Source of the DNA: Flavobacterium sangjuense
GTDB lineage: Bacteria > Bacteroidota > Bacteroidia > Flavobacteriales > Flavobacteriaceae
Direction of reading: 5' to 3'
Assembly: GCF_004797125.1 (NCBI RefSeq)
Contig: NZ_CP038810.1
Span: 3,066,339-3,130,338 of the forward strand
Length of the DNA stretch: 64,000 nucleotides
Shown in pieces: positions 7,429 to 50,127 of the stretch. The notes under the pieces were generated by a model. It was given only the letters and a program-made list of their open reading frames with translations. It made no database searches and was not told where the DNA came from. Numbering within the stretch: position 1 is the first letter of the stretch; the number at the start of each line of letters is the position of its first letter. The position numbers were made by a program, and so were the translations under genes.

Positions 7429-7459
7429 AAAAAAAGCGCCTCAAATAAGGGTGCTTTTT
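7429..7459. terminator. bidirectional intrinsic terminator
   Basis: The stem AAAAAGCGCC / GGGTGCTTTTT (one G-T wobble, loop about 8 bases) has A-runs and T-runs on both sides. It lies between the convergent membrane protein and TerB-like genes and can serve both. Confidence 0.75.
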
Positions 7460-28601: not shown

Positions 28602-28722
28602 TTTTAGGAGCACAGTATCTCGCTATTTAAGGACACTTTCTCCCGCTGTCCGCTCTATCTGTCATTGCGAGCTTGCGAGGCAATCTCACAATAACAGGAT
28701 GCCGCTCCCATCGGGGCTAAAG
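28602..28722 (-). repeat. dispersed repeat element, copy 1 (long form)
   Basis: Read on the minus strand, the element begins TTAGCCCCGATGG and ends GTGCTCCTAAAA. Its right part contains GCGGACAGCGGGA. Copy 2 at 40040-40121 has the same ends and the same GAACAGCGGGA block. Between the ends lies an imperfect palindrome with ATTGCCTCGCAAGCTCGCAAT, which resembles another short repeat (TGTCATTGCGAG...) common in Bacteroidota genomes. The element stops 6 bp from the stop codon of the KAS III gene and is GC-richer than its surroundings. Confidence 0.7.
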
Positions 28723-39991: not shown

Positions 39992-40039
39992 TGTTGTGTG
40001 TTGTTTTGTAGTTTAGTTGTTGTATGCTTTTGTTTTTTC

Positions 40040-40121
40040 TAGCCCCGATGGCAGTGAAAATCCTTTTTATTTTTCTAAAAATAAAAAGATTGTAACGAAC
40101 AGCGGGAAATAGCTCCTAAAA
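40040..40121 (+). repeat. dispersed repeat element, copy 2 (short form)
   Basis: It begins TAGCCCCGATGGCAGTG, ends AGCTCCTAAAA and contains GAACAGCGGGA. These blocks match copy 1 at 28602-28722 in opposite orientation. The core between the blocks is a perfect hairpin, CTTTTTATTTTT / AAAATAAAAAG. It lies 48 bp upstream of the carB start and after rpmH. Confidence 0.7.
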
Positions 40122-41104: not shown

Positions 41105-42349
41105 TTAACCAATCAGTTGTGCGTATAAATCTTCTTTTTCGTTTAGATAGCGGTATTCAAAACCGTGATCTTTCATTCTTTCCTTTATAGCGTGAACATC
41201 TTCCTTGTTTTTGAGTTCTAAACCTACCAAAGCCGGGGCGATTTCTCTGTTGTTCTTTTTGGTAAATTGAAAAAAAGTAATGTCGTCGTCTTTACCCAAT
41301 ATCTTACTTACAAATTCTTTCAAAGCGCCAGGCCGTTGCGGAAATTGTATCATGAAATAATGTTTCAGTCCTTCGTATAAAAGTGAACGCTCTTTTATTT
41401 CTTCTGTTCTTTCGATGTCATTATTGCTTCCGCTAACGATACAAACTACATTTTTCCCTTTTATTTCTTCTTTATAAAAATCTAATGCTGCGATTGAAAG
41501 TGCACCAGCCGGCTCAACAACCATAGCTTCTTCGTTATATAATCGCAAAATGGTAGTACAGACTTTACCTTCAGGAACAAGTACAACATCATCAAGATTC
41601 GCTTTGCAAATTTCAAAATTTAACTGCCCAACCTGCTTTACGGCAGCGCCATCAACAAATTTATCGATAGTTTCTAAATACGTGTTTTCGGCATTAGCGA
41701 TAGACGTTTTCATGGCTGGTGCGCCAAGTGGTTCTACACCAATAATTTTAGTTTTGGGACTTAATTCGGCAAAAACAGTAGAAAGTCCGGCTGATAATCC
41801 GCCGCCGCCAATAGGAACAAAAACATAATCGATTTGTTTTTTTGTCGCTTCTAAAATTTCCAAACCAACAGTTCCTTGTCCCGCAATAACTTTGATATCA
41901 TCAAAAGGATGAATGAAAACTTTGTTGTTCTCGTTGGCATTTTTTATCGCTTTCGCGTAAGCATCATCATACGTATTTCCGGTCAAAACAATTTCTACAA
42001 ATGATTTTCCGAACAATTGCACCTGCTTTATTTTTTGTTTCGGAGTAGTTTTTGGCATATAAATCACACCATGTATTTGGAGCAAATGGCAGGAATAAGC
42101 AACGCCCTGCGCATGATTTCCGGCACTGGCACATACTATACCTGCTCCTTTTTCTGCCTCCGAAAGCGAACTCATTTTGTTATAAGCACCACGAATTTTA
42201 TAAGAACGAACCACTTGCAAATCTTCTCTTTTTAGAAGAATTGTGGCAGCAAATTCATCCGATAAATTTAAGTTCTCAGTCAATGGTGTAACCTGAACTA
42301 CTCCACTTAACTGATTTTTTGCTTGTGCTATTTCCTGAAATAAATTCAT
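41105..42349 (-). CDS. ilvA: threonine deaminase (biosynthetic)
   Basis: IlvA turns threonine into 2-oxobutanoate with PLP, the first step of isoleucine synthesis. The PLP lysine is in VVRSYKIRGAYN (near 51), the phosphate-binding Gly-loop is GGGGLSAG, and an Asn-bearing SAGNHAQG is present. At 414 residues it has one ACT-like regulatory domain (about 330-414: YFMIQFPQRPGALKEF). E. coli IlvA is about 514 residues with two. It is the last gene of the ilv operon, 21 bp after ilvC, and should still respond to isoleucine. Confidence 0.96.
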   Translation of the reverse strand: MNLFQEIAQAKNQLSGVVQVTPLTENLNLSDEFAATILLKREDLQVVRSYKIRGAYNKMSSLSEAEKGAGIVCASAGNHAQGVAYSCHLLQIHGVIYMPKTTPKQKIKQVQLFGKSFVEIVLTGNTYDDAYAKAIKNANENNKVFIHPFDDIKVIAGQGTVGLEILEATKKQIDYVFVPIGGGGLSAGLSTVFAELSPKTKIIGVEPLGAPAMKTSIANAENTYLETIDKFVDGAAVKQVGQLNFEICKANLDDVVLVPEGKVCTTILRLYNEEAMVVEPAGALSIAALDFYKEEIKGKNVVCIVSGSNNDIERTEEIKERSLLYEGLKHYFMIQFPQRPGALKEFVSKILGKDDDITFFQFTKKNNREIAPALVGLELKNKEDVHAIKERMKDHGFEYRYLNEKEDLYAQLIG

Positions 42350-42370
42350 GTTTTCTCCTATTTGGATTTC

Positions 42371-43843
42371 TTATTCTACAATTTTCTTCATTGCTGTCAT
42401 GGCGTTGCGAAGTTCGGCACCACAAATTTCAATAGAATGATTTCTAATCGCTGCATTAATTTTTACCAATTCGAAATTATCAGTTGCAACATTAGTGCTA
42501 AAGCTTTTCCCAATTAAGTTGGTGTCCACTTTTTTCATAAAATCAGCCAAAAGCGGTTTGCAGGCGTGATCAAATAAATAGCAACCATATTCAGCTGTAT
42601 CAGATATTACACGGTTCATTTCAAATAATTTTTTTCTGGCAATTGTATTCGCGATAAGCGGTGCTTCGTGCAATGATTCATAATAGGCCGATTCATTTTT
42701 AATTCCCGCAGAAGTCATCGTTTCATAAGCCAATTCCACACCCGATTTTACAAAAGCAACCATCAAAGTGGCATTGTCAAAATATTCCTGTTCCGGAATT
42801 TCCATTGTTCCCGCTGCTGTTTTCTCGAAATGGGTTTCTCCCGTTGCTTCTCTCCAAGTCAGTAGATTTTTATCGCCATTTGCCCAATCTTCCATCATTG
42901 TTTTAGAAAATTCACCAGACAAAATATCATCCATATGCTTCTTGAACAAAGGAGTCATAATGATTTTCAATTCGTCAGCCAATTTAAAAGCTTCAATTTT
43001 TGCCGGATTTGAAAGACGGTCCATCATATTGGTAATTCCACCTATTTTCAATGCTTCTGTAATTACTTCCCAACCGTATTGCACTAATTTTGAAGCATAG
43101 GAAGCATCAATTCCTTTTTCTATCATTTTGTTAAAACTCAAAATCGAACCTGTTTGCAACAAACCACAAAGAATGGTTTGTTCTCCCATCAAATCCGATT
43201 TTACTTCAGCCACAAACGACGATAATAAAACTCCCGCTTTATGTCCACCCGTTCCAACACAATACGCTTTTGCGATTTCCAAACCATCACCATTTGGATC
43301 GTTATCCGAATGCACTGCAATTAATGTTGGCACACCAAAACCGCGTAAATATTCGGCACGAACTTCTGACGCCGGCGATTTTGGCGCAATCATAATAACT
43401 GTTAAATCTTTACGGATTTGCATTCCTTCTTCCACAATATTAAATCCATGCGAATAAGATAAAGTGGCGCCTTGCTTCATCAAAGGCACAATTTTATTGA
43501 TAACCGGAGTATGCTGTTTATCCGGAGCCAAATTGGAAACTAAATCAGCAGTTGGAATAATATCTTCGAAAGTTCCCACTTCAAATCCGTTTTCGGTAGC
43601 GTTTACATACGAAGCTCTTTTGTTGTCAATAGCTTCTTGACGCAAGGCATAAGCGACGTGAAGTCCGCTATCTCTAAGATTTTGACCTTGAGCCAAACCC
43701 TGAGCGCCACAACCAATTATGACTATTTTTTTACCTTTTAATTTTGAAACTCCATTTGCAAATTCGCTGCTTTGCATAAAATCACATTTTCCTAATTCCT
43801 GAACTTTTAAACGGTGAGGAAGTGAATTGAAATAATTTGACAT
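42371..43843 (-). CDS. ilvC: ketol-acid reductoisomerase, class II
   Basis: The 490-residue enzyme isomerises and reduces acetolactate or acetohydroxybutyrate with NADPH. The Rossmann loop [19 protein letters not shown] lies near residues 37-55. The length and the doubled C-terminal knotted domain place it in the long (class II) form, as in E. coli and plants. It lies 41 bp after ilvN and 21 bp before ilvA in the operon. Confidence 0.97.
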
Positions 43844-43884
43844 TGTATCTTTTATATTATTGTTATTAGTATTTGTTGCTAAAA

Positions 43885-44472
43885 CTACATTTCGAAAATC
43901 ATACTCTTATGATTCAAAAATTCGTTGTTTATTGGTTTGTTGGTTGGATCATTTTTCTCCATATCCAAGACTTTCTTGTGAACACCTTCACTTGATTTTA
44001 TAATGGCAATTCGAGAGCTTTTTACAAATTCAATCAAACTGTATTTTGATAATTCCTTTAGTAAATTATCTACTTCATCATCTTGACCTGTAGTTTCAAA
44101 AACGGTATAATCATCACGAATAACTACTGCTCTTGCTCCAAATTCTCTAAGTAAACGCTCTACTTTTACGTCTTTCATTATAACGGATGTTGGAACTTTA
44201 TAAAGTGCTATTTGTTGCCAGATAATTTCATCATTGGTATTGTAAAAAACCTTAAAAACTTCAACATTTTTTTCCAATTGACGAACAATATTTTTAACTA
44301 CGGTTTCTGTTTCCCTAATTACAATTGTAAACCGGTAGATGTTCTCAATTTCGCTTGGCGAAGAATTAAAACTGTCTAAACTTATTTTCCTTCTTGAAAA
44401 AATAATGGCTATTTTATTGAGCAAGCCAACCTGATTTTCGGTATAAACGGTTAATGTGAATTCCTGTTTCAT
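43885..44472 (-). CDS. ilvN: acetolactate synthase small subunit
   Basis: A regulatory subunit of 195 residues that confers valine feedback on the large subunit. The ACT domain is at residues 1-80 ([21 protein letters not shown], the valine-binding G-L-L-N-K-I loop; [15 protein letters not shown]), followed by the C-terminal ALS_ss_C domain (about 90-170). The gene follows ilvB by 10 bp, as expected for partners made in equal amounts. Either ilvN or ilvH would be an acceptable name. Confidence 0.94.
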
Positions 44473-44482
44473 AATACAATTT

Positions 44483-46231
44483 TTAAATTTCTTCTTTGCT
44501 CAAAACGATTTCGGCAACTCCTTTTCCTTGCGGAACCATTGGGAAAACATTGTCTTCATGAAGTACGGCAACTTCTAAAAGAAACGAACTCGGATTATCC
44601 AGCATTTGTTTCAAACCTTCCCGAAGTTCTTCCCTTTGCGAAATTTGCCTTCCGTCAATATTGTAGGCTTTCGCTACCTGCACAAAATTTGGGCTTTGAA
44701 TATCGGTAAACGAATAGCGTTTTTCATGAAATAGTTCCTGCCATTGGCGGACCATTCCAAGATAGCTGTTATTTAAAATTAAGATTTTTACGTTTGGTTG
44801 AAACTGCATTATTGTTCCCAATTCCTGAATATTCATTTGCGCTCCACCATCTCCCATAATGGCTATAACTTCACGTTCCGGCGCTCCAAGTTTTGCCCCA
44901 ATTGCAGCTGGCAGTGCATAGCCCATCGTTCCTAAACCACCGCTGGTAATATTACTTCGGGTTTTATTTTGCTTTGCATAACGGCACGCTACCATTTGAT
45001 GCTGACCCACATCAGTTACGATTACGGCATCGCCATTGGTCAGTTCGTTTAAAACCTGAATCACTTCACCCATTGTCAAACCACCTTCGGTTGGATTCAG
45101 TTCTTTTTCTATTACCGTTGTGGTTTCTTTTTCCTTTTTAATTTCAAATTCTTTGAACCATTCAGGACGTGATTTATTTTCAATCAAATTAGTAAGCAAC
45201 GGCAAGGTTTCTTTACAATCGCCCCAAACAGAAACTGCAGTTTGCACATTTTTATCAATTTCTGCCGGGTCAATATCCAAATGAATGACTTTTGCCTGTT
45301 TGGCATATTTATCTAATCTCCCAGTTACACGGTCGTCAAATCGCATTCCTACAGCAATTAAAACATCACATTCATTTGTTAAAAAATTAGGGCCATAATT
45401 TCCATGCATACCCAACATTCCAACGCCTAGCGGATGATCCGTTGGAATTGCACTCATTCCCATAATTGTCCAGGCTGAAGGTAAATTCCCTTTTTCAATA
45501 AAACTTTGAAACTCCTTTTCAGCATTTCCTAAAATGATTCCCTGACCAAATACTACAAATGGTTTTTTAGCCTCATTGATTAATTTTGCCGCTTGTTCTA
45601 TATATTCAGGTCTGACAATAGGATTTGGTCTATAACTTCTAACATGGATACATGGTCTATAGCCAATATAATCGAATAGCTGTAATTGTGCATTCTTCGT
45701 GATGTCTATTAAAACCGGTCCGGGACGACCACTTTTAGCAATGTAGAATGCTTTAGCAAGTACTTCAGGAATTTCAGTAGCATCCGTAATTTGATAATTC
45801 CATTTTGTAATTGGAGTAGTAATGTTAATTATATCTGTTTCCTGAAAGGCATCTGTTCCCAATAAATGAGCAAAAACCTGACCTGTAATACAAACCAACG
45901 GTGTGGAATCTATCAAAGCATCTGCCAAACCTGTAACCAGATTTGTTGCTCCCGGACCGCTCGTCGCAAATACAACGCCTGTTTTTCCGCTAACTCTTGC
46001 ATAACCTTGTGCAGCATGAATGGCACCTTGCTCGTGACGAACCAAAATGTGATTTAGCTTGTCTCTAAAGCCAAAAAGTGAATCATAAATTGGCATGATT
46101 GCTCCTCCGGGATAACCAAAAATAGTAGTTACGCTTTCAGATAATAAAGCATCAATTACCGCCAAACTTCCTGTGGTAGAAATAGGTTGTCTTCCTGCTT
46201 TTTCGATTTTATCTAATTCTAATGTTTTCAT
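44483..46231 (-). CDS. ilvB: acetolactate synthase large subunit
   Basis: I choose ATG 46231 (MKTLELDKIEKAG; 582 residues). It lies 11 bp after the ilvD stop, and a longer frame would overlap ilvD. The ThDP enzyme joins pyruvate with pyruvate or 2-oxobutanoate. Seen are the N-terminal GYPGGAIMPIYD and RHEQGAIHAAQGYAR (catalytic Glu), the FAD-binding middle domain, and the ThDP motif GDGGAQMNIQELGTIMQF-x-NVKILILNN. It is the common committed step for Ile, Val and Leu. Confidence 0.97.
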   Translation of the reverse strand: MKTLELDKIEKAGRQPISTTGSLAVIDALLSESVTTIFGYPGGAIMPIYDSLFGFRDKLNHILVRHEQGAIHAAQGYARVSGKTGVVFATSGPGATNLVTGLADALIDSTPLVCITGQVFAHLLGTDAFQETDIINITTPITKWNYQITDATEIPEVLAKAFYIAKSGRPGPVLIDITKNAQLQLFDYIGYRPCIHVRSYRPNPIVRPEYIEQAAKLINEAKKPFVVFGQGIILGNAEKEFQSFIEKGNLPSAWTIMGMSAIPTDHPLGVGMLGMHGNYGPNFLTNECDVLIAVGMRFDDRVTGRLDKYAKQAKVIHLDIDPAEIDKNVQTAVSVWGDCKETLPLLTNLIENKSRPEWFKEFEIKKEKETTTVIEKELNPTEGGLTMGEVIQVLNELTNGDAVIVTDVGQHQMVACRYAKQNKTRSNITSGGLGTMGYALPAAIGAKLGAPEREVIAIMGDGGAQMNIQELGTIMQFQPNVKILILNNSYLGMVRQWQELFHEKRYSFTDIQSPNFVQVAKAYNIDGRQISQREELREGLKQMLDNPSSFLLEVAVLHEDNVFPMVPQGKGVAEIVLSKEEI

Positions 46232-46242
46232 AGTTTTATTTT

Positions 46243-47922
46243 TTAGTCTTCGTCGGTTACACAACCTTCTGAAGCGTCTTTTACCAATTTCACATATTTA
46301 TAAAGCACTCCGTTTGTCACCTTGAGTGGCGGAATTACTAATTTTTTTCTTCTTTCTGCCAACTCAGCATCGGAAACTTTTAAATTAATAGCGTTAGTAA
46401 CTGCATCAAGTTCGATAATATCGCCATCATTAACGAGAGCAATATTTCCACCATCAAAAGCTTCCGGTGTGATATGACCGACGACAAATCCGTGGGTTCC
46501 ACCGCTAAATCTTCCGTCAGTAATCAAGGCAACACTTTTTCCTAAACCTGCACCAATAATTGCCGATGTTGGTTTAAGCATTTCGGGCATTCCCGGACCA
46601 CCTTTTGGACCAACATATCGAATGACAATTACATCACCCGCTTGTATTTTTTTATCTTCAATCCCTTGAATAAGTTCTTTTTCACCATCAAAAACTTTGG
46701 CCGGTCCGATGAATTTTTCTCCTTCTTTCCCTGTAATTTTTGCTACAGAACCTTTGGTTGCCAAGTTTCCGTATAAGATTTGAAGATGTCCTGTTTCTTT
46801 AATTGGATTTTCGACAGGACGAATTATATTTTGATCTTCAAAATCAATATCTACAACATTTTCTAAATTTTCAGCCAATGTTTTTCCGGTAACGGTTATG
46901 CAATTTCCGTGAAGCATTCCTTTGCTCAACAAATATTTTAAAACCATTGGGACACCTCCTTTTTCGTGGAGATTTTGCATTAAATAATTTCCGCCTGGTT
47001 TGAAATCAGCTATCAATGGCGTTTTATTGCTGATTCTCTGAAAATCATCCTGCGTAATTTTAACCCCTACACTTTTTGCCATCGCGATAACGTGCAAAAC
47101 TGCATTTGTACTTCCGCCAAGTGCAATTAATGTCGTGACTGCGTTTTCAAAAGCTTCAAATGTCATAATGTCTTTTGGACAAATATCTTTTTCTAATAAT
47201 AGTTTTATATAATGAGCAGCCTGCTTACATTCTTCAATTTTTTCATGACTTACTGCAGGATTAGAGCTCGAATAAGGCAAACTCATTCCGAGCGCTTCAA
47301 TAGCGATTGCCATTGTATTTGCAGTATACATTCCGCCACAAGCACCAGCTCCCGGACAGGAATTTTTAATAATTCCTTTGAATTCTTCTTCGGATATTTT
47401 TCCGGCTATTTTTTCGCCTAAAGCTTCAAAGGCCGAAACGATATTCAAATCTTTTCCTTGGTATTTTCCGGGAGCTATGGTTCCGCCATACACCATTATT
47501 GAAGGGCGATTTAATCTTCCCATAGCAATTATAGAACCCGGCATATTCTTGTCACAACCCGGAATGGCAATTACACCGTCATAATAATGTCCGGCAACTA
47601 CACTTTCAATACTATCAGCAATGATTTCACGGCTTACTAAGGAAAAACGCATTCCGTCTGTTCCGTTAGTAATACCGTCGCTAATTCCTATTGTGTTAAA
47701 AATCAATCCGACCATTTCATTTTCATTTACTTCAACTTTAATGTAAGAAGCCAAATGATTGAGATGCATGTTACACGTATTTCCATCGTAGCCCATTGAG
47801 GCAATTCCGATGAATGGTTGAGCCAATTGCTTATCATTCAATCCTATTCCGTACAACATCGCCTGAGCTGCAGGTTGTGTTGGATCTTGAGTTACCGTTT
47901 TGCTGTATTTATTTAATTCCAT
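46243..47922 (-). CDS. ilvD: dihydroxy-acid dehydratase
   Basis: The Fe-S dehydratase (559 residues) removes water from dihydroxy acids to give 2-oxo acids for Ile and Val. Cluster cysteines are visible in [10 protein letters not shown] (near 50), [10 protein letters not shown] (near 118) and [16 protein letters not shown] (near 190). The Ser base lies in [12 protein letters not shown] near the C-terminus. The presence of all three cysteines suggests a [2Fe-2S]-type enzyme. It lies 3 bp after ilvE and 11 bp before ilvB. Confidence 0.97.
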
Positions 47923-47925
47923 TAA

Positions 47926-48810
47926 TTAGTTTGTTTCTTGTAATTCTTTTTCCAGAACTAAATTTTTATAAGCGGTTTGCAATTTTTTGCCTAGTGTTTC
48001 ATTCCAGTTTTTAGGAAAACTTTTCTTTTCAAATGATTGCAATCCTATAATTTCAGCAGCAGTTCCGCATAAAAAAGCAGCATCGGCATTTGCTAAATCT
48101 TCTGGTAAAAACGCTCCTTCTGTTAATTCAATTTCTAAATCTTGGCACAATTTGATTACGGTTGCCCTTGTAATTCCGGGTAAAATATTTCCGGTTTTTG
48201 GCGTAAACAGTTTTCCGCCTTTCTCAAAAAACAAATTGGAACCAGGACCTTCAGCCAGAAAACCATCGGTATCAAGAAGAATCGCTTCGTCAAAACCTTT
48301 TTCTTTAGCTTCGGTAGTCGCCAGAATTGAGTTGATATAATGTCCGCAAACTTTCGCTTCGATTTTTGTCGATTTAGGATGTGGACGGCAGAATGAAGAA
48401 ATAGTAACATTTAGTAAATTATCACCAAGATAAGCGCCCCATTCCCAAGCGCAAATAAGTATTGAAACGCCATTAGGTTTTGTCAAACCCATATTTGGAC
48501 TGCAAAAAATTAATGGTCGAACGTAAGCATCTTTGAAATTGTTTACTTCAAGAACTTTATAAGTTTGCTCAATTAAATCATCAATATCGTAGTCAAATGG
48601 AATATTTATCATTTGACACGAGTTTTTCAATCGCTCGTAATGTTCTGTTGCTTTAAAAACACGAACACCGTTTTCAGTATTATAAGCCCGTATGCCTTCG
48701 AACACTCCGTAGCCATAATGAAGTGTCTGCCCATATAAATCTGTTGTTGCTTTTGTGGCTTTTACAAATTCTCCGTTTAAATAAATTGTTGTTTGCTCGT
48801 TGAAATACAT
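47926..48810 (-). CDS. ilvE: branched-chain amino acid aminotransferase
   Basis: A fold-type IV PLP aminotransferase of 294 residues, first structural gene of the operon. Signatures are GYGVFEGIRAY (near 32-42), the PLP lysine in SKIEAKVCGHYINSI-like sequence near 150, and GFDEAILLDTDGFLAEGPGSNLFF (seen in pieces). It makes Ile, Val and Leu from their 2-oxo acids. The 18 bp between the leader terminator and its ATG leave no room for another promoter, so expression depends on readthrough of the attenuator. Confidence 0.97.
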   Translation of the reverse strand: MYFNEQTTIYLNGEFVKATKATTDLYGQTLHYGYGVFEGIRAYNTENGVRVFKATEHYERLKNSCQMINIPFDYDIDDLIEQTYKVLEVNNFKDAYVRPLIFCSPNMGLTKPNGVSILICAWEWGAYLGDNLLNVTISSFCRPHPKSTKIEAKVCGHYINSILATTEAKEKGFDEAILLDTDGFLAEGPGSNLFFEKGGKLFTPKTGNILPGITRATVIKLCQDLEIELTEGAFLPEDLANADAAFLCGTAAEIIGLQSFEKKSFPKNWNETLGKKLQTAYKNLVLEKELQETN

Positions 48811-48828
48811 TTTCTTAATTTTTAATTT

Positions 48829-48864
48829 AAAAAAGCCTTTCTCACTTATGACTGAGAAAGGCTT
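48829..48864 (-). terminator. ilv attenuator terminator 2
   Basis: On the minus strand AAGCCTTTCTCA (48864-48853) pairs perfectly with TGAGAAAGGCTT (48844-48833) around an 8-base loop, followed by six T. It stands between leader peptide 2 and ilvE. Confidence 0.9.
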
Positions 48865-48891
48865 ACTATAAGTTACTATAATCCTGACTCG

Positions 48892-48942
48892 TCACATAAA
48901 ACGAATAATAATGACTATAATGATTACTACTAAATTCTTCAT
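48892..48942 (-). CDS. ilv leader peptide 2
   Basis: Reading the minus strand from ATG 48942 gives 16 residues, MKNLVVIIIVIIIRFM, ending in TGA. Ten consecutive codons are Leu, Val or Ile (6 Ile, 3 Val, 1 Leu), the three products of the downstream operon. A strong intrinsic terminator begins 28 bp after the stop. This is the textbook arrangement of an amino-acid attenuator, as in enterobacterial ilvL. The stop codon and next bases, TGACGAG, can pair with CTCAGTCA in the terminator's first arm and loop (one bulged A), a candidate antiterminator. Translation has not been shown. Confidence 0.8.
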   Translation of the reverse strand: MKNLVVIIIVIIIRFM

Positions 48943-48952
48943 CTTACTTTTT

Positions 48953-48985
48953 AAAAACAAAAAACCTTCTCAATTGGAAGGTTTT
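48953..48985 (-). terminator. ilv attenuator terminator 1
   Basis: On the minus strand AAAACCTTC (48985-48977) pairs perfectly with GAAGGTTTT (48969-48961) around the 7-base loop CAATTGA, followed by TTGTTTTT. It lies between leader peptides 1 and 2. Confidence 0.85.
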
Positions 48986-48994
48986 GAATATTTA

Positions 48995-49069
48995 TTATAC
49001 AAACAACTTCCTCTGAAATTTTAAAATTTCAATGACAATAACGTTGAAGATGTTTGAATTTGAATACAT
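48995..49069 (-). CDS. ilv leader peptide 1
   Basis: From ATG 49069 on the minus strand a 24-residue frame begins MYSNSNIF, runs through NVIVIEIL (residues 9-16) and ends KLFV before TAA. Nine of 24 residues are Ile, Val or Leu, clustered at codons 10-16. Terminator 1 begins 9 bp after the stop. Codons 19-23 (AGG AAG TTG TTT) contain GGAAG and GTTT, which can pair with AAACCTTCC of the terminator's first arm with two bulged T. The gap upstream has a -7-like TAAATTTG whose start site would fall just before this frame. Confidence 0.72.
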   Translation of the reverse strand: MYSNSNIFNVIVIEILKFQRKLFV

Positions 49070-49089
49070 TTTTACTGATTTTTATATTA

Positions 49090-49097
49090 CAAATTTA
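49090..49097 (-). promoter_or_regulatory. probable -7 element of the ilv operon promoter
   Basis: TAAATTTG on the minus strand fits TANNTTTG and lies 20 bp before leader ATG 1. I find no TTG at the normal spacing. Between here and 49233 the DNA is very AT-rich, with a small hairpin AAAAACG-CAT-CGTTTTT near 49141-49157 and nothing else recognisable. Confidence 0.5.
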
Positions 49098-49233
49098 TTA
49101 GCTTATCTGGAAAAACTACTATAATAATTCAAATAAAATTTAAAAACGATGCGTTTTTATTAATATTTTAATAAAAAGCCGTTATAATAATCAAATTAAT
49201 ATTTATAGCTCCAAATAATACTATATCTGCAAA

Positions 49234-50127
49234 TTAATATCCTGATAACGGAATTTCTATTTCGTATTTCTTTTTGGATGGATTAAGCAATTTTTTATCG
49301 CGTAACCAAGGATTGTGAATTTTTAGAATTTTATAGTTTATTCCTTGTGTTTTGGCGAAATCAGCTAAATCGGTAATGGTGCTGTCTACTTCTATTTTTT
49401 TAGAAGGAATTCTGGAATACAAATCACTTTCATAAATACTAAACCCATAAAGAGCAGGCTGTTTCATTATCTCTTTAAGAGCCAAAATTCTAAAAACATA
49501 ACGTGCTGTTTCTTCGGTCAAGCCTAAATCGTAGTAATTGGAAACTTTTTGTTCCTCAATTCTTTTACCAACGCCTGACATTCCTCCGTTATAAGATGCT
49601 GCTGCCAATGTCCACGAACCAAATTTTTCTTTGGCGGCCAACAAATATTTACAAGCTGCTTCGGTAGATTTTTCCAAATGATAGCGCTCATCTACAAGTT
49701 CGTTAACTTCCATTCCTTTTTCTTTGGCAGTATCAGGCATAAATTGCCAAACTCCTTTTGCTCCCGAAGGAGAAGTAGCATTTACAAGACCACTTTCGAT
49801 TACGGCAAGATATTTAAAATCATCCGGCACGCCATACTTTTGCAGGATTGGCTCAATAACAGGGAAAGCTCTGTTAGCTCTTCGTATTATTAATACAGTG
49901 GTTGCGTCTAAATTAGCATTGATAAGTAATTCTCTGTCTAATCGTTCTCTAACGTCACTTATTTGTAGTGGAGCACTTTCTCCAGCAAAATCAACAGCTG
50001 TTGGAAAAAACATTGGAGTGCCTTCACGTAATAATTTGTCTTTGTTGTCTCCTGCTATTCCAAAAATCATCATTCCTGAAATCAAAATTACTACGAATGT
50101 CGATAATAGGGCTTTATTCGTTTTCAT
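49234..50127 (-). CDS. lytic transglycosylase, membrane-anchored
   Basis: The 297-residue protein has an N-terminal membrane anchor or signal (about 8-25) and a GH23 Slt-type domain (about 95-235). This domain cleaves the MurNAc-GlcNAc bond of peptidoglycan to anhydro sugars. The catalytic Glu is in VIESGL (near 110), followed by SPSGAKGVWQFMPDTA, and AAASYNGGMSGV carries the conserved Tyr-Asn-Gly. The last 50 residues (ITDLADFAKTQGINYKILKIHNPWL) resemble a LysM-like binding part. It resembles MltD without its multiple LysM repeats. It lies immediately upstream of the ilv leader but is probably a separate unit. Confidence 0.92.
   Translation of the reverse strand: MKTNKALLSTFVVILISGMMIFGIAGDNKDKLLREGTPMFFPTAVDFAGESAPLQISDVRERLDRELLINANLDATTVLIIRRANRAFPVIEPILQKYGVPDDFKYLAVIESGLVNATSPSGAKGVWQFMPDTAKEKGMEVNELVDERYHLEKSTEAACKYLLAAKEKFGSWTLAAASYNGGMSGVGKRIEEQKVSNYYDLGLTEETARYVFRILALKEIMKQPALYGFSIYESDLYSRIPSKKIEVDSTITDLADFAKTQGINYKILKIHNPWLRDKKLLNPSKKKYEIEIPLSGY

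Follow-up and report, generated by a model that had tools for sequence, protein, structure and literature searches.

The ilvEDBNCA operon of Flavobacterium sangjuense is very probably (at a probability of roughly 0.85) controlled by two ribosome-mediated transcription attenuators that stand in series ahead of its first gene, each with a short leader frame of its own and a terminator of its own. This attenuator reading is based on the frames, the terminators, the competing pairings and the recurrence of the arrangement, all of them taken from sequence. The features are collected in the table below; the window denotes the whole stretch of DNA that was analysed, 64,000 nucleotides in length. On re-reading, the coordinates and peptides that an earlier, sequence-only reading had given for both frames, both T-run hairpins and the -7-like box turned out to be correct, and the two perfect terminator hairpins that it had claimed were found as perfect stems of 9 and 12 bp. 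The -7 consensus was taken from the part of PMC9723704 at hand; no clear -33 element could be recognized by eye for the box. Judging from the letters, an intrinsic terminator lies between leader frame and first gene. Both frames contain isoleucine and valine codons, and frame 2 has one leucine only. Within the operon, the listed TTG start of ilvB (44483-46264) overlaps ilvD, and an internal ATG is the probable start.

Table. Features of the leader and operon of ilvEDBNCA in Flavobacterium sangjuense (positions in the window)
Feature	Position	Strand	Basis
-7-like promoter box TAAATTTG	49097-49090	-	sequence reading against consensus TAnnTTTG
Leader frame 1, MYSNSNIFNVIVIEILKFQRKLFV, 24 codons plus stop	49069-48995	-	sequence reading
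Unit 1 segment 1, predicted protector strand, CAAACATCTTC	49046..49056	-	pairs with 49010-49000, minimum-energy fold
Unit 1 segment 2, predicted antiterminator strand, within the final part of frame 1	49000..49013	-	duplex test
Intrinsic terminator 1, perfect 9-bp stem	48985-48961, T-rich tail to 48953	-	
Leader frame 2, MKNLVVIIIVIIIRFM, 16 codons plus stop	48942-48892	-	sequence reading
Unit 2 segment 1, predicted protector strand, ATTATAGTC, in the Ile/Val codons	48913..48921	-	
Unit 2 segment 2, predicted antiterminator strand, spanning the frame 2 stop codon	48883..48896	-	
Unit 2 protector partner GATTATAGT	48875..48883	-	fold
Intrinsic terminator 2, perfect 12-bp stem	48864-48833, tail to 48829	-	
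ilvE, branched-chain aminotransferase, first gene of the operon	47926..48810	-	NCBIfam NF005146 and TIGR01122 above cut-off
ilvD, ilvB, ilvN, ilvC, ilvA	41105..47922	-	NCBIfam

When considering such an arrangement, its chance expectation is important. When the 287-base leader was shuffled 2000 times with its dinucleotides preserved, no shuffle contained two terminators and none combined two terminators with two frames; two non-overlapping I/L/V-rich frames (at least 6 I/L/V within 9 residues) appeared in 17 and at least one such frame in 356. A simple scan of positions 48700-49300 detected 3 terminator-like sites vs 0.2 expected, namely, the two ilv terminators and hairpin 1 read on the opposite strand. 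Both strands of the window contain 30 terminator-like sites, 3 of which have an I/L/V-rich frame upstream, two of these being the ilv units; a Leu-rich short frame (MMNWVRSLLLLIGVVFSYLSLHKIYMQK) is found upstream of a terminator-like site at 7430 (+). When the 50 ATG starts of window ORFs of at least 100 aa were tested, ilvE alone was preceded by any unit. The folding energies of the two terminators are -8.5 kcal/mol (terminator 1) and -17.7 kcal/mol (terminator 2), and terminator 1 is the weaker point of the array. Elsewhere in the window, Flavo-1 RNA motifs score above the Rfam gathering score at 40037-40113 (+) and 28635-28722 (-).

Classical attenuators follow a scheme of alternative 1:2, 2:3 and 3:4 pairings. 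In unit 1 of the window, the antiterminator duplex with the 5' arm of terminator 1 has a predicted energy of -8.7 kcal/mol (z -2.2 vs shuffles), which does not improve on the -9.1 calculated for the same segment 2 against the unit 2 arm; in unit 2, the duplex with the own 5' arm reaches -14.0 (z -2.7), and the unit 1 arm gives -3.4. Folded alone, unit 2 yields a 9-bp protector stem (48921-48913 with 48883-48875), in which the Ile/Val codons pair with bases 3' of the stop codon, together with the terminator, at -30.4 kcal/mol and z -4.6; unit 1 yields a like structure at -21.5 and z -2.0. The 1:2 duplex test alone gives a weak signal against shuffles, with z -1.2 for each window unit and a mean z of -1.56 for 35 first or single units and of -0.86 for 50 later units. 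In a survey of 37 loci that were picked for scanner-detected units, and with only units having both frame and terminator counted, the antiterminator duplex fell below z -1.65 in 79 of 87 units, both window units included, at a mean z of -4.0. Roughly every second first unit has its antiterminator just 5' of the stop codon (about -14 to -4), and the commonest later units have it across the stop codon (about -8 to +8). When the arms were swapped between units, 29 of 31 loci showed stronger pairing of the last unit with its own arm than with the first unit's arm; for the first unit, a preference for its own arm was seen in 25 of 31, the first unit of the window being among the failures; loci L022 and L013 were excluded from this test. 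Thus, each of the two units appears to be anatomically complete as a ribosome-mediated attenuator, with a frame, a predicted protector stem and an antiterminator located at the stop codon or shortly ahead of it.

The comparative signal was followed in alignments of 44 of the 50 later units and 26 of the 32 first units, the too divergent ones being left out. In the terminator stem of the 44 later units, 4 pairs have changed on both sides vs 0.7 in shuffles, which is above every shuffle; for the combined 1:2 and 3:4 structure, which was predicted from the same alignment, 28 cells have changed on both sides vs 6.2. The antiterminator cells of these units are paired in 91.4% of cases, with no excess of covariation among the 44. 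Codon positions were compared in 32 later and 16 first units selected for their similarity to the consensus. When all 13 codons of the later units are taken, 29, 50 and 47 changes fell on positions 1, 2 and 3, showing no clear coding mark; the mark is seen only in the nine codons before segment 2, where the counts are 2, 14 and 23. The 16 first units (36, 44 and 34 changes) have no third-position excess. The third unit of L022, which has lost its stop codon, and the first unit of L013, the frame of which was misassigned, were excluded from the alignments, from the 1:2 duplex test and from the count of valine and leucine given below.

The tandem units are not a peculiarity of F. sangjuense, as is shown by their recurrence in other ilvE loci, in matches to a covariance model and in a survey of the family. 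The ilvE comparison covered the best 80 of 174 ilvE loci at strict and lenient scanner settings. In the 36 best loci, at least two units were found in 25 at strict settings (14 with three, 10 with two, 1 with four), 7 having one and 4 none; at lenient settings there were 28 (16 with three, 11 with two, 1 with four), with one unit in 4 and none in 4. Two of the counts are probably too high by one, since the upstream of the two units in L004 and the farthest of the four in L022 appear to be spurious. In the remaining 44 of the best 80 loci, mostly from Pedobacter and Chitinophaga, 42 have one unit, 1 has two and 1 none under strict settings, and 39 have one, 4 two and 1 none under lenient settings. 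The nearest ilvE among these 80 (L001, 94%) has both units, Flavobacterium sp. SUN046 (L002) scores two, and the F. psychrophilum locus (L024) has three. The ilvE contigs of L001, L004 and L008, which are assigned to metagenome bins of Candidatus Nitrotoga, Rhizobium and Limnohabitans, look flavobacterial and are therefore probably mis-binned.

For the family survey, ilvD served as the query against 159 genomes that represent almost one per genus; a match was obtained in 118, and the upstream DNA was usable in 115, the genome G260 and the loci L303 (60 bases, no upstream DNA) and L224 (too little) being left out. At strict settings, two units precede the operon in six of the seven ilvE-first loci and none in one, L202 having three at lenient settings; the 108 ilvD-first loci comprise 53 with no unit, 48 with one and 7 with two. 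Tandem arrays are thus found in 6/7 ilvE-first vs 7/108 ilvD-first loci (Fisher p 4e-6, uncorrected for phylogeny). The background count of this survey held one terminator and is useless as a control. A covariance model of the later unit, R1, matched 74 of 299 genomes at E 1e-3, only 6 of them below 1e-8. On inspection of 30 R1 loci, 22 lay before ilvE or ilvD, 15 of these with at least two units at lenient settings; at the other 8 no ilv gene was found downstream, so that the weak tail of R1 includes false matches. In sum, two or three of these predicted units are common before the ilvE-first operons of Flavobacteriales.

Within the genus, a close ilvE occurs in seven of 81 genomes, F. sangjuense included. 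The seven ilvE-first genomes hold two units (the window), none (G043), three (G009), two (G061 and G011) and one (G067 and G012), and another genome of the genus, G142 (L144), has two. In G043, the ilvD of which is 92% identical, there is an I/V-rich frame, MAIKQFVNVVIIVT, with no terminator after it and no complete unit; the same frame is seen upstream of ilvE in L085 and L005, with a terminator-like hairpin before and none after. From the 46 genus genomes with ilvD, the 30 loci most like the window ilvD were taken, 29 of which were usable: 19 ilvD-first loci have one unit and 5 none, and the ilvE-first loci have two units in 2, one in 2 and none in 1. At least two units thus recur in 25-28 of the 36 best loci; the close relatives are mixed, with zero to three units. 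The ilvD gene of the window (46243-47922) is 83-92% identical to that of seven genomes, one of them from another genus, and 65-69% identical to that of the other 40 genus genomes listed, a pattern that may reflect exchange of the ilvE-first operon between lineages.

The proposed mechanism can be envisaged as follows. Behind the RNA polymerase, a leading ribosome would translate the short Ile/Val-rich frame. With charged tRNA in ample supply, the ribosome would reach the stop codon and cover the antiterminator, so that the terminator would form and transcription would end. Upon shortage of isoleucine (or valine) tRNA, the ribosome would stall on the control codons and mask the protector strand, and the freed segment 2 would pair with the 5' arm of the terminator, allowing transcription to continue. 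Having passed unit 1, the polymerase would meet unit 2, where another ribosome would have to translate frame 2. Provided that each unit acts independently of the other, their read-throughs would multiply and their logarithmic gains would add, and an array in series would be expected to give lower basal expression, a wider range and a steeper response. In a toy race model with parameters of our choosing, read-through at the same codon rate is 0.064 with one unit and 0.0041 with two, and the gain is 5.5 and 11.0, respectively; the squared read-through and the doubled gain follow by construction and are arithmetic, not evidence. What the anatomy supports is two leader-terminator units in series that recur in relatives, each with the antiterminator and the predicted protector stem that classical attenuation calls for; that both terminators act as checkpoints in the cell is a prediction.

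The first and the later units are different types. Valine is present in 32 of 32 first units and absent from 31 of 49 later units, and leucine is absent from 35 of these 49, which are not independent of one another. The signal would be mainly isoleucine with some valine; that of leucine is not clear, because frame 2 has one leucine and the 35 later units none. A possibility that we consider rather unlikely is that the units sense different amino acids and make up an AND gate, with isoleucine and valine read by the first unit and mainly isoleucine by the later ones, and not a multiplier of gain. The distribution of valine just described is what such a gate would call for, but both frames of the window hold isoleucine and valine; a general Val/Ile split between units is ruled out by the family survey, where the last unit contains valine in 11 of 13 tandem loci, which makes the split clade-specific. 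Still less probable is that regulation is left to unit 2 alone, with unit 1 either a relic in decay or just the terminator of the transglycosylase gene that lies upstream. Terminator 1 is weak and the antiterminator of unit 1 is not arm-specific in the window; the upstream gene ends at 49234, with no other minus-strand terminator-like site from 49300 to unit 1; and L004 has, about 150-175 bases upstream of ilvE, a hairpin that lacks both T-run and leader frame and looks like a first unit in decay. Against this, first units with frame, antiterminator and terminator recur before ilvE under different upstream genes; among the 36 ilvE loci, for which up to 2.5 kb of upstream DNA was covered, one (L001) shares the upstream gene of the window. 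In addition, the -7-like box lies between the transglycosylase gene and frame 1.

The length of the array might also be neutral, with units gained and lost by slippage or recombination to little regulatory effect, which appears unlikely. The copy number does vary from 0 to 3, the third unit of L022 lacks a stop codon, and units 2 and 3 within a locus are on average 0.86 identical vs 0.78-0.80 between loci, being mutual nearest relatives in 3 of 16 three-unit loci (L015, L024, L035). In the other 13, however, each of the two later units has its nearest relative at another locus and hence predates the split of the respective species; these patterns point to duplication or conversion both early and more recently. 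In addition, the competing antiterminator is kept in the 79 of 87 units, counted among those with frame and terminator, and tandem arrays track ilvE-first operons. A T-box or metabolite riboswitch is extremely improbable, although T-boxes account for other arrays of tandem terminators ahead of ilv genes (PMC12452182, in the part consulted). The Ile/Val frames have their stop codons at the antiterminator. The leader has no Rfam match at the gathering score, a T-box or riboswitch being rejected on this ground, and the six weak matches in it (up to E 1) include no T-box, the best having 24.2 bits vs a gathering score of 54. Taken together, the arrangement is real and recurrent, and the proposed attenuation mechanism is well supported by the anatomy of the units.

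F. sangjuense seems to use leader-peptide attenuation elsewhere in its genome, in single copy, since trpE and hisG carry single leader units. The check covered four gene starts, namely, two trpE-like genes, hisG and leuA. The best trpE match (L313, below the curated family cut-off) is preceded by a single Trp leader (MNILNNTWWWNSLRQSS, WWW) with a terminator, and another terminator, at -277, lacks a Trp frame; hisG (L316) has a single His leader (MNTIISQLHHHHSCKQAS, HHHH) with one terminator; upstream of the second trpE-like gene and of the best leuA match (below cut-off), no terminator was found. In F. psychrophilum, of the same family, 'strong clues' have been described for leader-peptide attenuation upstream of amino-acid operons (PMC9723704); neither ilv nor isoleucine nor valine occurs in the main text of that paper, and tandem units are unnamed in the parts of it examined.

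Ribosome-mediated attenuators are known in enteric bacteria for trp, his, ilvGMEDA, ilvBN, leu, thr and pheA (PMC1183508, in part). The units described here share with them the leader frame rich in end-product codons, the antiterminator and the terminator; whereas the enteric ones normally occur once per operon (PMC3641672, in part), here two or three complete units stand in series. The closest parallels differ in several respects, as far as the consulted parts of the sources go. The Salmonella mgtCBR leader, called a singular example by its authors, likewise has two short frames, each with alternative structures, but these respond to two signals (ATP and proline-tRNA) and their stem-loops are unlike intrinsic terminators (PMC3641672); in the ilv leader, both frames contain the same amino-acid codons and both stops are intrinsic-terminator-like. 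The presence of isoleucine and valine in both window frames would speak for one signal, unlike in mgtCBR. Tandem T-boxes of Bacillota (ilv, leu, trp, thrS) also string two or three sensor-terminator modules for one amino-acid pathway, but they bind tRNA directly, with no translating ribosome, and belong to another phylum (PMC12452182). The rimP leader of some Gammaproteobacteria has tandem terminators, the upstream one with a potential antiterminator, but no leader-peptide frame is named for either in the part consulted (PMC2965389). In Corynebacterium (Actinobacteria), ilvBNC has an Ile/Leu/Val-rich uORF, a terminator and an antiterminator, but only one uORF (PMC11109978, PMC10272879, both in part). 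A search of the open literature, the subscription literature being mostly beyond its scope, returned no leader-peptide array that repeats one amino-acid sensor and none for ilv of Bacteroidota. Thus, tandem attenuators as such are already known (mgtCBR, T-boxes), and a leader-peptide array with the same sensor repeated is apparently new, although an earlier mention is possible.

In the theory of attenuation, sensitivity depends on the number of control codons and on the race between ribosome and polymerase in one unit (PMC1183508, in part). Units in series would be another route to higher sensitivity. We tentatively suggest, at somewhat less than even odds, that the number of units, from one to three, serves Flavobacteriales as a kind of digital gain that sets how steep their Ile/Val control is and how low its floor lies, and that in one clade a first unit for isoleucine and valine, followed by later units for isoleucine alone, would form a serial gate. 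The natural arrays of 0, 1, 2 and 3 units before ilv operons allow a direct measurement of what such stacking does.
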